This document shows positions 3 to 34,103 of a DNA stretch of 34,103 nucleotides, one piece after another. The translations under genes and the position numbers were made by a program. The stretch is from a virus. A model generated the notes under the pieces. The model did no database searches. It had not been told where the DNA came from and saw only the letters and a list, made by a program, of their open reading frames with translations. Within the stretch, counting starts at the first letter, position 1. The number at the start of each line of letters is the position of its first letter. Location of the stretch: positions 1 to 34,103 of the IMG/VR virus record IMGVR_UViG_3300046787_000307; one strand, 5' to 3'.

Positions 3-41
3 CACCATCAAAAAAACGGCGATGTCCTTATCCGCATATAG
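3..41 (+). CDS. 3' tail of the gene that starts at 33764 (split by the contig ends)
   Basis: This is the C-terminal end of the 81-residue protein encoded at 33764-34009, repeated here because the contig ends overlap. Its stop is the TAG at 39-41. The two base differences at 6 and 9 change residues in this copy compared with the right-hand copy and are probably end-of-contig errors. Confidence 0.7.
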   Translation, partial: HHQKNGDVLIRI

Positions 42-135
42 GAAACAGTACATTAAGCAATTAAAAGATATTAGAAAACTCCTAGATGTACTCATACATT
101 TAGAAGAATCTAAATTATAAGAATAATTGCTCGCT
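10..135. repeat. Left copy of contig-end repeat (circular closure)
   Basis: Bases 10-135 are identical to 33978-34103. Extending outward, bases 1-9 match 33969-33977 except at positions 6 and 9. The repeat shows that the molecule is circular, circularly permuted or terminally redundant. The length is close to a common assembler k-mer, so I read it as an assembly overlap of a circularly permuted genome rather than a biological terminal repeat. Unique genome length is about 33,968 bp. Confidence 0.95.
22..120 (+). CDS. Small basic hypothetical protein (32 aa), left copy
   Basis: An ATG at 22 opens a 32-residue ORF, rich in Lys, Leu and Ile, ending at TAA 118-120. It overlaps the end of the preceding gene by 20 nt in another frame, which suggests translational coupling. 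It is predicted as one amphipathic helix. The upstream A-run contains no Shine-Dalgarno. Function unknown. A DnaA-box-like TTATCCGCA (28-36) lies inside it. It is duplicated at 33990-34088 only because of the contig-end overlap. Confidence 0.5.
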   Translation: MSLSAYRKQYIKQLKDIRKLLDVLIHLEESKL

Positions 136-168
136 TACATCTGATACATCAATCACATGGCACATCTC

Positions 169-465
169 ATAGGCGAGATACGGGCAGAGAACCGTAGGGA
201 TATAGAAGCCCGAGACATGGTAGCTAGTTGCTAGTAGGAGACCTATATTGTACCGAACCCAACAAGCGGTCTGAATGTCAAACCATTCTCTCGCCTATCA
301 GGTGTGTCATAAGTTGGTGGGTTAAGTTTGGGTAAAAGGTGGACTGCCTATGCCCGAGTCCGCAAGGATAATGTCCCAAGAGAAGTCATGACTCTTAAGG
401 GAACAAGCGTAAGCACTCGGTAGGCGTTAAGCCCGATATGAAAATATATTTGTTTTTATGTCACC
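169..465 (+). ncRNA. Large structured RNA with a possible pseudoknot, unidentified class
   Basis: No credible ORF lies between 121 and 546, but complementary segments form a coherent fold. Domain 1 closes with a perfect 10-bp helix (169-178 with 289-298) and contains CGGGC/GCCCG (181-185/208-212), GACAT/ATGTC (214-218/275-279) and AGACC/GGTCT (239-243/268-272). Domain 2 nests 301-304/462-465, 308-312/456-460, 328-332/432-436 and a 10-bp helix with a 3-nt bulge (346-350/421-425 plus 354-358/416-420). That helix encloses a GCAA-tetraloop hairpin (359-368) and a long hairpin (374-402). Loop 256-263 can pair with 313-323, joining the domains as a pseudoknot. I see no conserved core of tmRNA, RNase P RNA, 6S RNA or group I/II introns. 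It could be a free RNA or a long leader of the operon starting at 547. No certain promoter or terminator is visible. Confidence 0.68.
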
Positions 466-546
466 CATACTTAGCTCATCAACAAATCGTGCATCAAGTT
501 CTGTAGGGAGTATAGAGAAATATTATTAAAACTAAACAATTAAAAT

Positions 547-831
547 ATGGAAAACACAGCACAAGTAGAAATGCCAAAATATGTATGTCATAAAGAAGTT
601 TGGGCTTTGAAGATTAAAGAAATAAAAAGAGATGGTGAAGGTGAAAATCGTGAGACAGATGGTAGTGCAATCATCACACCAGAGGAGGTAGGTTACGCTC
701 CTTTCAAGGTTGACCATGCTTATGTATCGAAACATAAGCCAGAAATTGGTGGATATTATGTGGTTTACAAAGATGGCTACAAATCGTTTTCGCCAGCAGA
801 AGCATTTGAAAGTGGTTACACAAGAATTTAA
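547..831 (+). CDS. Conserved phage protein of unknown function (94 aa)
   Basis: The protein resembles, from memory, a small hypothetical family common in phages and metagenomic viruses, with a KEVWALKI motif near residue 17, a GSAIITPEEVGYAPF block in the middle and a GGYYVVYKDGYKSFSPAEAF block near the C-terminus. No catalytic residues are recognisable and no membrane segment is present. The ATG follows AATTAAAAT with no Shine-Dalgarno. It is the first coding gene after the structured RNA, so it may share that transcript. Function unknown. Confidence 0.85.
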   Translation: MENTAQVEMPKYVCHKEVWALKIKEIKRDGEGENRETDGSAIITPEEVGYAPFKVDHAYVSKHKPEIGGYYVVYKDGYKSFSPAEAFESGYTRI

Positions 832-903
832 ACACTAAAGTATCAAATCACTACCTCTCTACAGTACTTGGTGCATGAATTATCAGTAATTAAATTAAAA
901 AAT

Positions 904-4551: not shown

Positions 4552-5941
4552 ACAATCAGATGCTTGGGAATGTTGGGAAAGCAAAGGCATAACAGAATTA
4601 GGTTATGGAGGTGCTGCGGGTGGTGGAAAAACCAGACTTGGTTGCTATTTAATTATTACAGCTTGTGAACAATATCCAGGGAGTAGATGGGCTATTGGTA
4701 GAAAGGAGCTTAAAACATTAAGACTAACTACTCTTGCATCTCTGTTTGAAATCTTTAAAGAGATGGGTTATTCAGAAAAAGATTATAGATATGATGTCCA
4801 ACAAGGGCTTATAACATTCTCTAATGGCTCACAAATACTTATCTTAGATACTGCATATAGTCCACAAGACCCAGAATATACTCGCTTCGGTTCACTTGAA
4901 ATATCAGGTGCTTGGATTGACGAAAGCAATGAAACACCAGAGAAAGCTAAATCTATTTTAAAGACTCGTGTAGGAAGAAAGAACAACCTTAATGGAATAT
5001 TAGTAAAACCTTTCTGGCTAGAAACATTTAACCCAAACAAAGGGCATGTGCATAGAGATTACTACAAACCTTGGAAAGAAAAGACTATGCCTTCTTACAG
5101 AGCTTTTATTCGTGCCTTACCTGGAGATAACCCACACTTACCAGAAGCATACATAACGAACCTAGAAAGAGCTGATAAAGTAACAAGGGAAAGACTTTTA
5201 AAGGGGAACTTTGAGTTTGATGATGACCCACAAAAGATAATGTTTTATGAAGCTATAACAGACTTAACAACAAATACTTTAGTAAACAACAAGGAAACAA
5301 AAACTCTTATTGCAGACATAGCTCGTTTTGGTGGAGATAAAATCGTTCTAGGTTGTTTTAAAGGTTTAGAACTGTACTCTCTAGGAGTTTATACTTATCA
5401 AGGTATAGACGAAACTATCAAGAAAATGAAAGAAACTATCCTTGTAGAAACTATTGGATATGTAAATGTATTAGCTGACGAGGGTGGTGTTGGTGGTGGT
5501 GTAGTAGACGGAATGAGGGGTATCAAAGGCTATAACGGTGCATCTAGCCCTTTACCAATATGGGATTATGTAACTAATAGGCAAAGACCAGCTAACTATC
5601 AAAACTTTAGAAGCCAGTGCTATTTTAAGTTAGGCGAAATGGTAAACAATAGGCAGATAAGCATTAAGATTAAACAGTTTAAGACAAACATAGAGGGCTA
5701 CACTAAAGAAAAAGCTACATCAGACTTAATTGAGGAACTTGACGCTATAAAACAAACAGACAATTCAGAAGACGGGAAGAAAGCAATTATTCCTAAAAGT
5801 GAAATAAAAGAAATTTTAGGGAGAAGTCCAGACTTTGCAGATATTATGATGATGAGAATGTTTTTTGAGCTTAAAGACTTACCTATAACTTATAGGCATA
5901 GTTTGATAGACACAGAACAAGATAAAAATCCTGCAATTTAA
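4523..5941 (+). CDS. terL: Terminase large subunit (ATPase and nuclease)
   Basis: This is the packaging motor. Walker A is GYGGAAGGGKT (residues 27-37) and Walker B is GAWIDESNE (129-137), with the catalytic Glu following the Asp. The C-terminal RNase H-fold nuclease shows acidic positions D265 (IADIARFGGD), D319 (VLADEGG) and D437/D440 (SPDFADIMMMR). The full length of 472 aa is normal for headful-packaging P22/Sf6-type enzymes, in keeping with a circularly permuted genome. The start overlaps the small subunit and has no Shine-Dalgarno. A promoter for the next gene lies in the 46 nt after the stop. Confidence 0.95.
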   Translation: METRITLLPKQSDAWECWESKGITELGYGGAAGGGKTRLGCYLIITACEQYPGSRWAIGRKELKTLRLTTLASLFEIFKEMGYSEKDYRYDVQQGLITFSNGSQILILDTAYSPQDPEYTRFGSLEISGAWIDESNETPEKAKSILKTRVGRKNNLNGILVKPFWLETFNPNKGHVHRDYYKPWKEKTMPSYRAFIRALPGDNPHLPEAYITNLERADKVTRERLLKGNFEFDDDPQKIMFYEAITDLTTNTLVNNKETKTLIADIARFGGDKIVLGCFKGLELYSLGVYTYQGIDETIKKMKETILVETIGYVNVLADEGGVGGGVVDGMRGIKGYNGASSPLPIWDYVTNRQRPANYQNFRSQCYFKLGEMVNNRQISIKIKQFKTNIEGYTKEKATSDLIEELDAIKQTDNSEDGKKAIIPKSEIKEILGRSPDFADIMMMRMFFELKDLPITYRHSLIDTEQDKNPAI

Positions 5942-24558: not shown

Positions 24559-25035
24559 ATGAATAAAAAAATATTCGCTTTATCTATCCTCGGAGCAATA
24601 GTGTTTCTTTGGATAGCAATAGCATTCAGTCAAGAAAAAGGAGAAAATCCTGTAATTGAAACTAAGGAACTCTCGGTATGGGAATTGGCTAGTATTTCAG
24701 CAATGAGATTTGGTCAAGACCCTGTACTGATAAATAAAATAATAATGTGCGAAAGTGGTGGTCGTGTATTACCCCATGACGGGAACAGAGGAGTAAATGC
24801 TACTGGAATACATGATAAATCGTTCAATTATTGGTTGCCTGAATATGTAAAAGAGACAGGTGAACAATTAGACATAACCACGATGTATGGACAAGTTACT
24901 ATGCTTGCTTGGAGATTCTCTAAAGGAGAAAAAGCTAGAGAAGCATGGACGAGTTATAGAGCAATCAAAAATGGTGGTACTTATGCCTTTTACTCAACTT
25001 TGCTTAAAAAGCATTTCGTGGTAAAATGCAGTTAG
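24559..25035 (+). CDS. Membrane-anchored lytic transglycosylase / lysozyme-like enzyme (158 aa)
   Basis: A signal-anchor helix covers about residues 4-23. The mature part has the SLT/goose-lysozyme-like motif IIMCESGG with the likely catalytic E65, then GVNATGIHDKSFNYW and a C-terminal AWRFSKG, WTSYRAIKNGG block typical of such folds. It probably cleaves glycan strands after export or from the membrane. With the peptidase endolysin this gives two different wall-cutting activities in one lysis region. Confidence 0.78.
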   Translation: MNKKIFALSILGAIVFLWIAIAFSQEKGENPVIETKELSVWELASISAMRFGQDPVLINKIIMCESGGRVLPHDGNRGVNATGIHDKSFNYWLPEYVKETGEQLDITTMYGQVTMLAWRFSKGEKAREAWTSYRAIKNGGTYAFYSTLLKKHFVVKCS

Positions 25036-25065
25036 TTCATTGTAAACTTGGGGCTGAATATAAAC

Positions 25066-25455
25066 ATGAAGAAGACAAATCTAAAATGGCGATTGAGTAA
25101 GTTGCCATCCTCTGAGGAGGTTCTAGCTCTCATCAAAGATGGAGTTATTACTAAAGAAGAAGGAAAAGAAATATTATTCAGCGAAGAGACAGAGGAAACA
25201 AAATCCATAACTGACTTGCAGTCAGAGATTAAGTTCCTCAAAGAACTCGTAGAAAGGTTGTCAAGCAATAGAAATCAAATCGTTGAAACAATCAAAATAA
25301 TTGAAAAACCATACTACCAAAAACCATGGTATCAACCATACTACTACTGGCAGAATCAAGACAACATCGTGTTGTGTTCCAATGGAAGCACTATCCTAGG
25401 AGCAGATTCAAATGTAACAAATTTATCAGCATCTAGTTTTTCACAAATTAGTTAA
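25066..25455 (+). CDS. Conserved phage protein, helical N-terminus, Tyr/Trp-rich linker (129 aa)
   Basis: I prefer the ATG at 25066 to an upstream TTG at 25048. The block WRLSKLPSSEEVLALIKDG, then ITKEEGKEILFSEE, and a helix (DLQSEIKFLKELVERLSSN) recur, as I recall, in uncharacterised phage proteins near lysis or tail genes. After that comes a Pro/Tyr/Trp-rich stretch (KPYYQKPWYQPYYYW) and a polar C-terminus, perhaps an exposed virion segment. Function unknown. Confidence 0.72.
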   Translation: MKKTNLKWRLSKLPSSEEVLALIKDGVITKEEGKEILFSEETEETKSITDLQSEIKFLKELVERLSSNRNQIVETIKIIEKPYYQKPWYQPYYYWQNQDNIVLCSNGSTILGADSNVTNLSASSFSQIS

Positions 25456-25483
25456 TTTAAAATAGCCCCAAGTTTTCAGTGAA

Positions 25484-25512
25484 TTACAAACTAAAGTTTG
25501 ATGTGCTATACT
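25484..25512 (+). promoter_or_regulatory. Promoter of small RNA 25519-25607
   Basis: TTACAA (25484-25489), a 17-nt spacer and TATACT (25507-25512). The hairpin GCC-GAAA-GGC starts 6 nt later, at the predicted +1. Confidence 0.65.
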
Positions 25513-26818: not shown

Positions 26819-27195
26819 TGCTCAAAGCTTTCTTCAAAATAGAAATACCGAAAGAAACAAAACCACTTTCAGAAAGAGAAAAGCGTTGGATTGTTCAACG
26901 AGAAATCTTCGCCGATATTGAAAAAGAAGACCTACGAATAACAAACAGACCACGATATATAACATTTCTAAAAAGATATAAACTCCGACATAATCCTGAA
27001 AGTATAAAACTATGGAAAAAGAACAAGGATAAAGACTGTAAGAAAATCAATCAAATGAATAAAAAGAGTTTTGGCTTCTTCACTTCCCACCTAAAACTAG
27101 ATGATTTGTTCTTTATTAAGAGTGTAATAAATGACAAATTGGTACGCGGTGAGTCGCCGACAATGTATGTATTAAGTTTGAGTAAGAATATATGA
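26818..27195 (+). CDS. Basic hypothetical protein preceding RNA ligase (125 aa)
   Basis: The protein is very basic and helical, with alternating charges (SEREKRWIVQREIFADIEKEDLR, KLWKKNKDKDCKK). It starts at the stop of the membrane-protein gene and its end overlaps the RNA ligase start (ATGA at 27192-27195). The three genes therefore form one coupled unit. No catalytic motif is seen. A nucleic-acid-binding partner of the ligase is only a guess. Confidence 0.65.
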   Translation: MLKAFFKIEIPKETKPLSEREKRWIVQREIFADIEKEDLRITNRPRYITFLKRYKLRHNPESIKLWKKNKDKDCKKINQMNKKSFGFFTSHLKLDDLFFIKSVINDKLVRGESPTMYVLSLSKNI

Positions 27196-28226
27196 AATTC
27201 AATATAGATAGAAAAAAATATATAGATAGTGGGCTAGTTGATGAGAAAGAACATCCATCACTTCCCCTTTTTCTTTATAATTACACACAGGAGTGCCAGT
27301 TTGGAAAACATTGGGACGAGACTACACTTATGTGCAGGGGTCTTGTGGTTGAAAAAGGTACCAATGAGGTAATAGCAAAACCATTCAATAAGTTTTTCAA
27401 CTATGAAGAACACTTAGTAAATGGAGACAGTTTGCCAGATGAAACACCTATTGTTTATCCAAAGTTTGACGGCTCACTTGGTATTATGTTTTTTTATGGT
27501 GGAAAATGGTACATATCAACAAGAGGTAGTTTCACTTCAGACCAAGCTATTTGGGCTATGACTTTTATAAATCAGCCAGATATTTACCAATGGACAGAAA
27601 AGTTAGATAAAAGCAAGACTCATTTATTTGAAATAATCTACCCAGAGAACCGTATCGTAGTTTCTTATGGTTACAGAAAAGAATTAGTTCACCTAGCTTC
27701 AGTTGATAATCAGACTGGAAAAACCGAAAAACCAGATAGTTACTTTCCTATGGCTTCGGAAATACCTTTTACATCTTATGAACAGTTGAAAGGATTGAAC
27801 CTACAAAATGAGGAGGGTTTCGTACTGTGGTTTCCAAACTCAGATTTTCGGGTAAAAATAAAATTTGAAGACTATGTGAAGCTCCACAAAATAATGACTG
27901 GTCTATCCCAAATCGGTATATGGGAAATGCTTAGAGATAGTAAAAACCCTTTTGCGCAAGATATACCAGATGAAATGCTTGCATGGCTTAGTGGTATTGT
28001 AGACGACCTAAAAGAGAAGTTTGAAACAATACGAAATACAGCAGAGGAAACATTTACTGAAGCTATTAAGTTTCCTATACGAAAAGACCAAGCACTGGTT
28101 ATCAGTAAATCAAAATACCCTGGTATAGCTTTTAGTATGCTCGACAATAAAAACTATAGTGACGCTATTTGGAAAATGATTCGACCAAAAGGAAGTTATA
28201 CATTCAAGAGAGATATTGACTCTTAG
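27192..28226 (+). CDS. RNA ligase, T4 Rnl1-like nucleotidyltransferase (344 aa)
   Basis: The covalent ligase motifs are present in order: CRGLVVE with R49 upstream, the AMP-accepting K91 in KFDG (motif I), HLFEIIYPENRIVVSY with E147 (motif III/IIIa), EEGFVLWF at 207-213 (motif IV) and VKIKFEDYVKL at 221-231 (motif V, K222/K224). The N-terminal and C-terminal helical parts agree with the Rnl1 type that seals 5'-phosphate and 3'-OH RNA ends, typically to repair tRNAs cut by host defence. No polynucleotide kinase/phosphatase partner is in the genome. Fifty-four nt after its stop lies the small pseudoknotted RNA. Confidence 0.88.
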   Translation: MKFNIDRKKYIDSGLVDEKEHPSLPLFLYNYTQECQFGKHWDETTLMCRGLVVEKGTNEVIAKPFNKFFNYEEHLVNGDSLPDETPIVYPKFDGSLGIMFFYGGKWYISTRGSFTSDQAIWAMTFINQPDIYQWTEKLDKSKTHLFEIIYPENRIVVSYGYRKELVHLASVDNQTGKTEKPDSYFPMASEIPFTSYEQLKGLNLQNEEGFVLWFPNSDFRVKIKFEDYVKLHKIMTGLSQIGIWEMLRDSKNPFAQDIPDEMLAWLSGIVDDLKEKFETIRNTAEETFTEAIKFPIRKDQALVISKSKYPGIAFSMLDNKNYSDAIWKMIRPKGSYTFKRDIDS

Positions 28227-33716: not shown

Positions 33717-33763
33717 CAATAGAATAGATTGGTGTATCAAATGTAGGCGAGCAGAGTTAGTCT

Positions 33764-34009
33764 ATGGAGAACAAGAAAACCACAGAATTACTAGACCTAC
33801 TAAACAAAATCACTAAAGACGGTACATGGAACGATGAAGCAACGAAGGTTTCTGATGAGCTAAAGAGCAGGGAACCATTCTATACACTTCTAAATCCACG
33901 AAACGGTATCACTATTAGTGATGAGCTTGATATTCTTGAGGAAGATATTAAGAAACTCAAACGACATAAACACGATGAAAAAAACGGCGATGTCCTTATC
34001 CGCATATAG
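33764..34009 (+). CDS. Helical hypothetical protein crossing the contig junction (81 aa)
   Basis: The protein has a helix (TTELLDLLNKITKD), a middle loop (PFYTLLNPRNGITI) and a charged helical C-terminus. Its final codons coincide with the terminal repeat, so it is continuous in the circular genome. Its end overlaps the 32-aa gene at 33990. Function unknown. Confidence 0.62.
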   Translation: MENKKTTELLDLLNKITKDGTWNDEATKVSDELKSREPFYTLLNPRNGITISDELDILEEDIKKLKRHKHDEKNGDVLIRI

Positions 34010-34103
34010 GAAACAGTACATTAAGCAATTAAAAGATATTAGAAAACTCCTAGATGTACTCATACATTTAGAAGAATCTAAATTATAAGAATAATTGCTC
34101 GCT
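33978..34103. repeat. Right copy of contig-end repeat
   Basis: Identical to bases 10-135. Joining the copies makes the early operon continuous into the structured-RNA region. Confidence 0.95.
33990..34088 (+). CDS. Small basic hypothetical protein (32 aa), right copy
   Basis: The same ORF as at 22-120, present again only because the contig ends overlap. It is probably translationally coupled with the gene that ends at 34009. Function unknown. Confidence 0.5.
   Translation: MSLSAYRKQYIKQLKDIRKLLDVLIHLEESKL

Follow-up and report, generated by a model that had tools for sequence, protein, structure and literature searches.

The strongest signal in the window, by which we mean the whole 34,103-nt stretch of DNA analyzed here (IMG/VR record IMGVR_UViG_3300046787_000307), is a series of four long plus-strand stems, A, B, C and D, that runs from 33727 across the joint of the circular genome to 878. 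The mismatches in these stems, and in a fifth (E) that lies apart from the chain, support selection for pairing in RNA of the plus strand, on which the genes here are encoded. We tentatively favor a reading in which A to D are RNase III-type processing stems that would divide one transcript into units.

Four stems in series across the joint

Comparison of the two ends of the record revealed an exact 126-nt repeat, with 10-135 identical to 33978-34103; within bases 1-9, two positions differ from the corresponding other end. Assembly of a circular genome typically leaves an end overlap of this kind. The record, although classed as linear, is therefore a complete circle of 33,968 bp. Reading the gap near position 1 across the joint shows the pairing of the two arms of stem A (Table 1). 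That gap, 121-546, contains no tRNA or tmRNA that we could find, and no tRNA was found in the whole genome. Its G+C content reaches 49% at 157-433, against 35% for the genome, a value equaled by 3 of 1,692 windows. Neither a clear promoter nor a clear terminator belonging to the four-stem region was found.

The folded region is far more stable than shuffled sequence would predict: the 1,126 nt from 33724 through the joint to 881 gave a z score of -9.5 on the plus strand and -4.9 on the minus strand, and none of 40 shuffles was as stable. In a 1,199-nt fold over the joint, all four stems formed with pairing probabilities of 0.98-1.0. A genome-wide scan for long-range plus-strand helices returned A, B, C, D and E as the best. 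When the scan was made blind to G-U pairs, so that G-U and A-C both counted as mismatches, A, E, D and B were the top four inverted repeats of the genome, E in second place, with C slightly lower; A thus ranks first whether G-U is counted or ignored. The helices 157-178/289-310 (21 pairs) and 313-333/463-483 (20 pairs) exceed the longest helix in 60 shuffles, which had 18, and a helix equal to D arose once, in one of two shuffled genomes.

Table 1. Stems, enclosed units and associated features of the circular genome (p, pairing probability; z, fold z score)
Feature	Position	Strand	Description
Arm A left	33727-33754	+	27 bp with 127-154; p 0.98-1.0 when folded over the joint
81-aa gene in A	33764-34009	+	ORF; start codon about 9-10 nt past the left arm
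Terminal repeat	33978-34103	none	Exact copy of 10-135
32-aa ORF in A	22-120	+	Overlaps the 81-aa gene at its end; stop 7 nt before the right arm
Arm A right	127-154	+	Genome helix scans and fold across the joint
Arm B left	157-178	+	Pairs with 289-310, 21 bp; p 0.98
B interior (domain 1 of the first-pass annotation)	179-288	+	Non-coding, 110 nt; z -0.5
Arm B right	289-310	+	Fold and inverted-repeat scan
Arm C left	313-333	+	Pairs with 463-483, 20 bp; 313-327/469-483 at p 0.99
C interior (domain 2 of the first-pass annotation)	334-462	+	Non-coding, 129 nt; 12-bp hairpin 435-446/451-462
Arm C right	463-483	+	Fold and inverted-repeat scan
Arm D left	487-510	+	Pairs with 855-878, 23 bp; p 0.98
94-aa gene in D	547-831	+	phrog_11049, PHROGs E 6e-30; function unknown
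Arm D right	855-878	+	Genome helix scans and fold across the joint
Arm E left	25033-25056	+	Pairs with 25463-25486, 23 bp; apart from the A-D chain
Gene in E	25066-25455	+	129 aa; start about 9-10 nt past the left arm, stop 8 nt short of the right arm
Arm E right	25463-25486	+	Genome helix scans
T4-type RNA ligase	27192-28226		The phage's own gene

The stems abut one another almost directly, with spacers of 2, 2 and 3 nt between A and B, B and C, and C and D, respectively, which read AC (155-156), AA (311-312) and AAA (484-486). A long inverted-repeat helix of 20-27 bp directly flanks each of four putative units, two containing genes and two non-coding. Stem B as a whole (157-310) scored z -4.8 and stem C (313-483) z -7.5. 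The interior of C is itself stable at z -4.0, largely because of its 12-bp hairpin, without which the value is z -2.3. No firm family match was obtained for the 81-aa gene in A, and no family match at all for the 129-aa gene in E. We saw no clear Shine-Dalgarno sequence for the genes in A, D and E; the left arms of A and E end close to the start codon, and 36 unpaired nucleotides separate that of D from the phrog_11049 start codon.

The first-pass annotation had placed at 169-465 a large structured RNA of a possibly new class, folded into two domains within an ORF-free gap. The gap and the helices it named were recovered: there is no ORF of at least 50 aa in 121-546, 169-178 pairs with 289-298 at p 0.98, and in the whole-gap fold the helix described as 346-358/416-425 takes the form of two, 346-350/421-425 (p 0.96) and 354-359/415-420 (p 0.89). 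Its GNRA-type hairpins do have GCAA and GUAA loops, but these sit on stems of 2 bp. The inter-domain pseudoknot it suggested, 256-263 with 313-323, is unsupported; the latter strand belongs to stem C, whose 20 bp (p 0.97-0.99) compete with it. The extent it gave is too short: 169-465 alone scored z -2.4, with 3 of 200 shuffles as good, 165-430 scored z -0.6, and the interior corresponding to its first domain folds at chance level. The results do not point specifically to a single compact RNA with two domains and about 300 nt. What stands out as significant is a series of four stems, two of them gene-enclosing; the outer helices are absent from that annotation, and the element runs over the joined ends.

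Constraint on the plus-strand transcript

We classified the mismatches in stems A to E and counted 12 G-U, 1 A-C and 5 others. If G-U and A-C arose at equal rates, at least 12 G-U among 13 would be expected with p 0.0017, and the background ratio is indeed about 1:1, at 9:8 in weaker repeats of the genome and 37:29 in three shuffled genomes pooled. This excess of G-U supports selection on the plus-strand RNA. Together with the strand difference in fold stability across the joint, it places the constraint on the transcript and not on the DNA. The bias is the closest substitute for covariation that a single genome offers, and is distinct from covariation between homologs.

Each stem also appears specific to its own partner. 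Pairing energies of the left arms range from -28 to -40 kcal/mol with their own right arms, but only from -4 to -18 kcal/mol with foreign ones; this weak cross pairing indicates that stems A to D are orthogonal. Some arms have short patches in common: A shares them with B (TAGGCGAG) and with D, and D with an arm in the terminase relative L014 (see below). Similarity is restricted to these patches (p 0.01-0.05, uncorrected), and common descent of the arms, which we considered, was set aside as weakly supported by so patchy a resemblance.

Searches for relatives and other structured stretches

Rfam scans of the full sequence, the gap and the relatives gave no relevant match at the gathering threshold, or for the gap at E values up to 5, which agrees with the first-pass proposal as far as a phage RNA structure without an Rfam match is concerned. 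The selection on pairing supports the structure; a new RNA class is a candidate reading. The covariance models of GOLLD, ROOL and OLE, RNAs that form RNA-only oligomers, likewise did not match this region. DNA similarity searches of phages and plasmids returned chance matches of about 30 nt only, as did searches of IMG/VR with four exact patterns chance matches only. The loci of TerL and phrog_11049 relatives held no sequence relative of the RNA region, and none close was found through the neighboring gene at 2048-2482. For arms B and C, covariance models run on 36 complete records plus about 0.8 Mb from additional loci found no match outside the window; as each was built from a single sequence and the collections were limited, this indicates a lack of close relatives there, not uniqueness. 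We rejected the idea of a phrog_11049-specific leader, the stretch upstream of 64 homologs being not unusually folded.

Applying a fixed rule to 1.6 Mb of phage DNA, we asked which long helices enclose exactly one ORF. D and E do so, against about 1.4% of the other long helices; A, with two overlapping ORFs inside, falls outside the rule. Two terminase relatives contain comparable brackets: 4339-4364/4599-4624 flanks a 69-aa ORF in L139, and 3620-3642/3946-3968 flanks a 90-aa ORF in L013. The latter is the weaker case, since its minimum-energy fold prefers other pairing.

Strongly folded gaps occur in other TerL relatives as well, some with terminators, direct repeats or DnaA-like boxes; to equate them with A to D would be conjecture. 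L014, whose small terminase is 76% identical to that of this phage, has at 616-1129 a non-coding stretch with four long gene-free arms in series, 0-7 nt apart (z -4.7). Upstream of the terminase in L007, the gap at 5641-5909 holds a 29-bp stem around a 21-bp stem plus direct repeats (z -10.6). The non-coding gap before the terminase genes of L136 (602-1111) carries two perfect TTGACA-17-TATAAT promoters, one directly before and the other directly after a strongly folded stretch.

Several further observations concern other structures. In this genome, 28246-28385 carries a promoter-like TTGACA-17-TATACT and, after it, a compactly folded stretch with UUUUUUU at its end (z -4.6 on the plus strand, -5.2 on the minus strand). 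Of two nested helices there, either one excludes the other or both could join in an H-type pseudoknot (CCUUUAGG with CCUAAGGG), and the stretch, for which Rfam gave no real match, resembles a second gene for a small RNA. Three relatives, L115, L116 and L117, have at about 4760-4975 a structured stretch conserved at both ends with its interior replaced; its stem AGUGAGAG/CUUUCUCACU differs in L117 from L115 and L116, with the pairing kept. L005 contains at 16-134 a tRNA-like fold (acceptor, D, anticodon and T arms) with an additional arm about 50 nt long, which ARAGORN did not call. Finally, in L002 (79-1705) the large terminase is 98% identical to that of this phage and the small terminase only 67%, a drop that points to a sharp recombination border directly upstream of TerL.

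Proposed processing stems and rival readings

If A to D are processing stems, the interval from 33727 through the joint to 878 would be transcribed from the plus strand, and the transcript is computed to fold into tandem, distinct stems. A double-strand-specific RNase, for example host RNase III, would cleave them, releasing two small mRNAs (A and D) and two small structured RNAs (B and C). Stem E would do the same for one further gene at 25 kb. The freed B and C RNAs might, at a guess, accumulate as stable small RNAs; that the interior of B is no more stable than chance is a point against the processing reading.

The RNase III sites of phage T7 are local intergenic hairpins and are not known to wrap genes as A, D and E do. 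In T7 mRNA, as proposed here, RNase III divides transcripts at stems, and a stem of 12 bp is enough for one-strand cutting (PMC8708148). The layout is closer to bacterial pre-rRNA, in which inverted-repeat stems commonly contain RNase III sites; the stems of pre-16S and pre-23S rRNA, cut by RNase III in bacteria and at bulge-helix-bulge motifs in archaea, likewise immediately flank serial products (PMC7038931). A to D are, like these, long enough for RNase III, and it is this combination of a pre-rRNA-like layout with sufficient stem length that leads us to prefer processing stems. Unlike the case of pre-rRNA, the putative cleavage here would release small mRNAs and small RNAs of a phage.

For A, D and E, the chief competing account is control of the kind known from the Staphylococcus aureus icaR mRNA, an established example in bacteria of 5'-3' pairing in which the ends pair around the coding sequence, block the ribosome and form an RNase III substrate (PMC3868564). 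Pairing of the cistron ends would then block translation initiation or set mRNA half-life, and B and C would be additional regulatory arms. Such control would suit A and E, which stop 9-10 nt short of the start codon inside, yet the icaR motif is short and lies on the Shine-Dalgarno site, whereas the stems here are 20-27 bp long, several in tandem, and D leaves its 36 unpaired nucleotides before the start codon. B and C, moreover, have no gene inside. We consider this account unlikely on its own; processing and icaR-like control could act together, as in icaR. We give about the same low standing to a stand-alone structured RNA of about 385 nt (128-512) resembling GOLLD or ROOL, in which B and C would be closed by 128-149/489-512. 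It is possible because the right strand of A can pair with the left strand of D, and it draws on the stability of 126-514 (z -7.3 as plus-strand RNA, -3.0 as minus-strand RNA and -3.5 as DNA), a closing helix at p 0.72-0.92 and the raised G+C content inside. Once the joint is included, however, the closing strands pair better within A and D, and the closed RNA at 128-512 was superseded when the genome was closed into a circle. GOLLD and ROOL are also large structured non-coding phage RNA regions of unknown function, but they are conserved families often near tRNA islands, ROOL with 659 nt and GOLLD often above 800 nt (PMC12286853); the region here has no Rfam match, nearby tRNA, terminator or homolog that we could find, and two of its stems hold genes. 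Were the alternative pairing of A right with D left to form, it would make a switch.

Units of 154-428 bp with inverted repeats of 20-28 bp, some holding one gene, also resemble small mobile elements, and DnaA-like boxes lie in strongly folded gaps of some relatives, so we considered functions at the DNA level: terminal inverted repeats of mobile elements, invertible segments, or single-strand hairpins for replication or packaging. The mismatch ratio of 12 G-U to 1 A-C makes these improbable, as do the far better folding of plus-strand RNA than of the minus strand or DNA, terminal repeats that differ between units, and spacers that form no common target duplication. Chance inverted repeats in an AT-rich genome are least probable of all, with a very small chance in our view: one D-grade helix did arise by shuffling and homologs were not found, but four stems abut, no shuffle of the region was as stable, the two longest gap helices surpass every one in 60 shuffles, and the mismatches favor G-U.

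Returning to processing stems, their working principle resembles that of known ones, while tandem orthogonal wrapping in a phage appears new; we know of no phage with tandem orthogonal long stems around single genes and small RNAs, and no such arrangement was found in a literature search covering mainly papers outside subscription. It is doubtful, though conceivable, that the arrangement is a lineage-wide device in which unrelated, orthogonal stems each wrap a gene or small RNA and yield protected single units, which the phage's T4-type RNA ligase might circularize. If A to D are processing stems, the layout of rRNA operons would here be applied to small mRNAs and small RNAs, so that dosage and stability could be set for each unit of a single transcript. 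They would also suggest a search route that needs no homologs: one looks for ORFs flanked by long inverted repeats in which the mismatches are of the G-U and not the A-C type.
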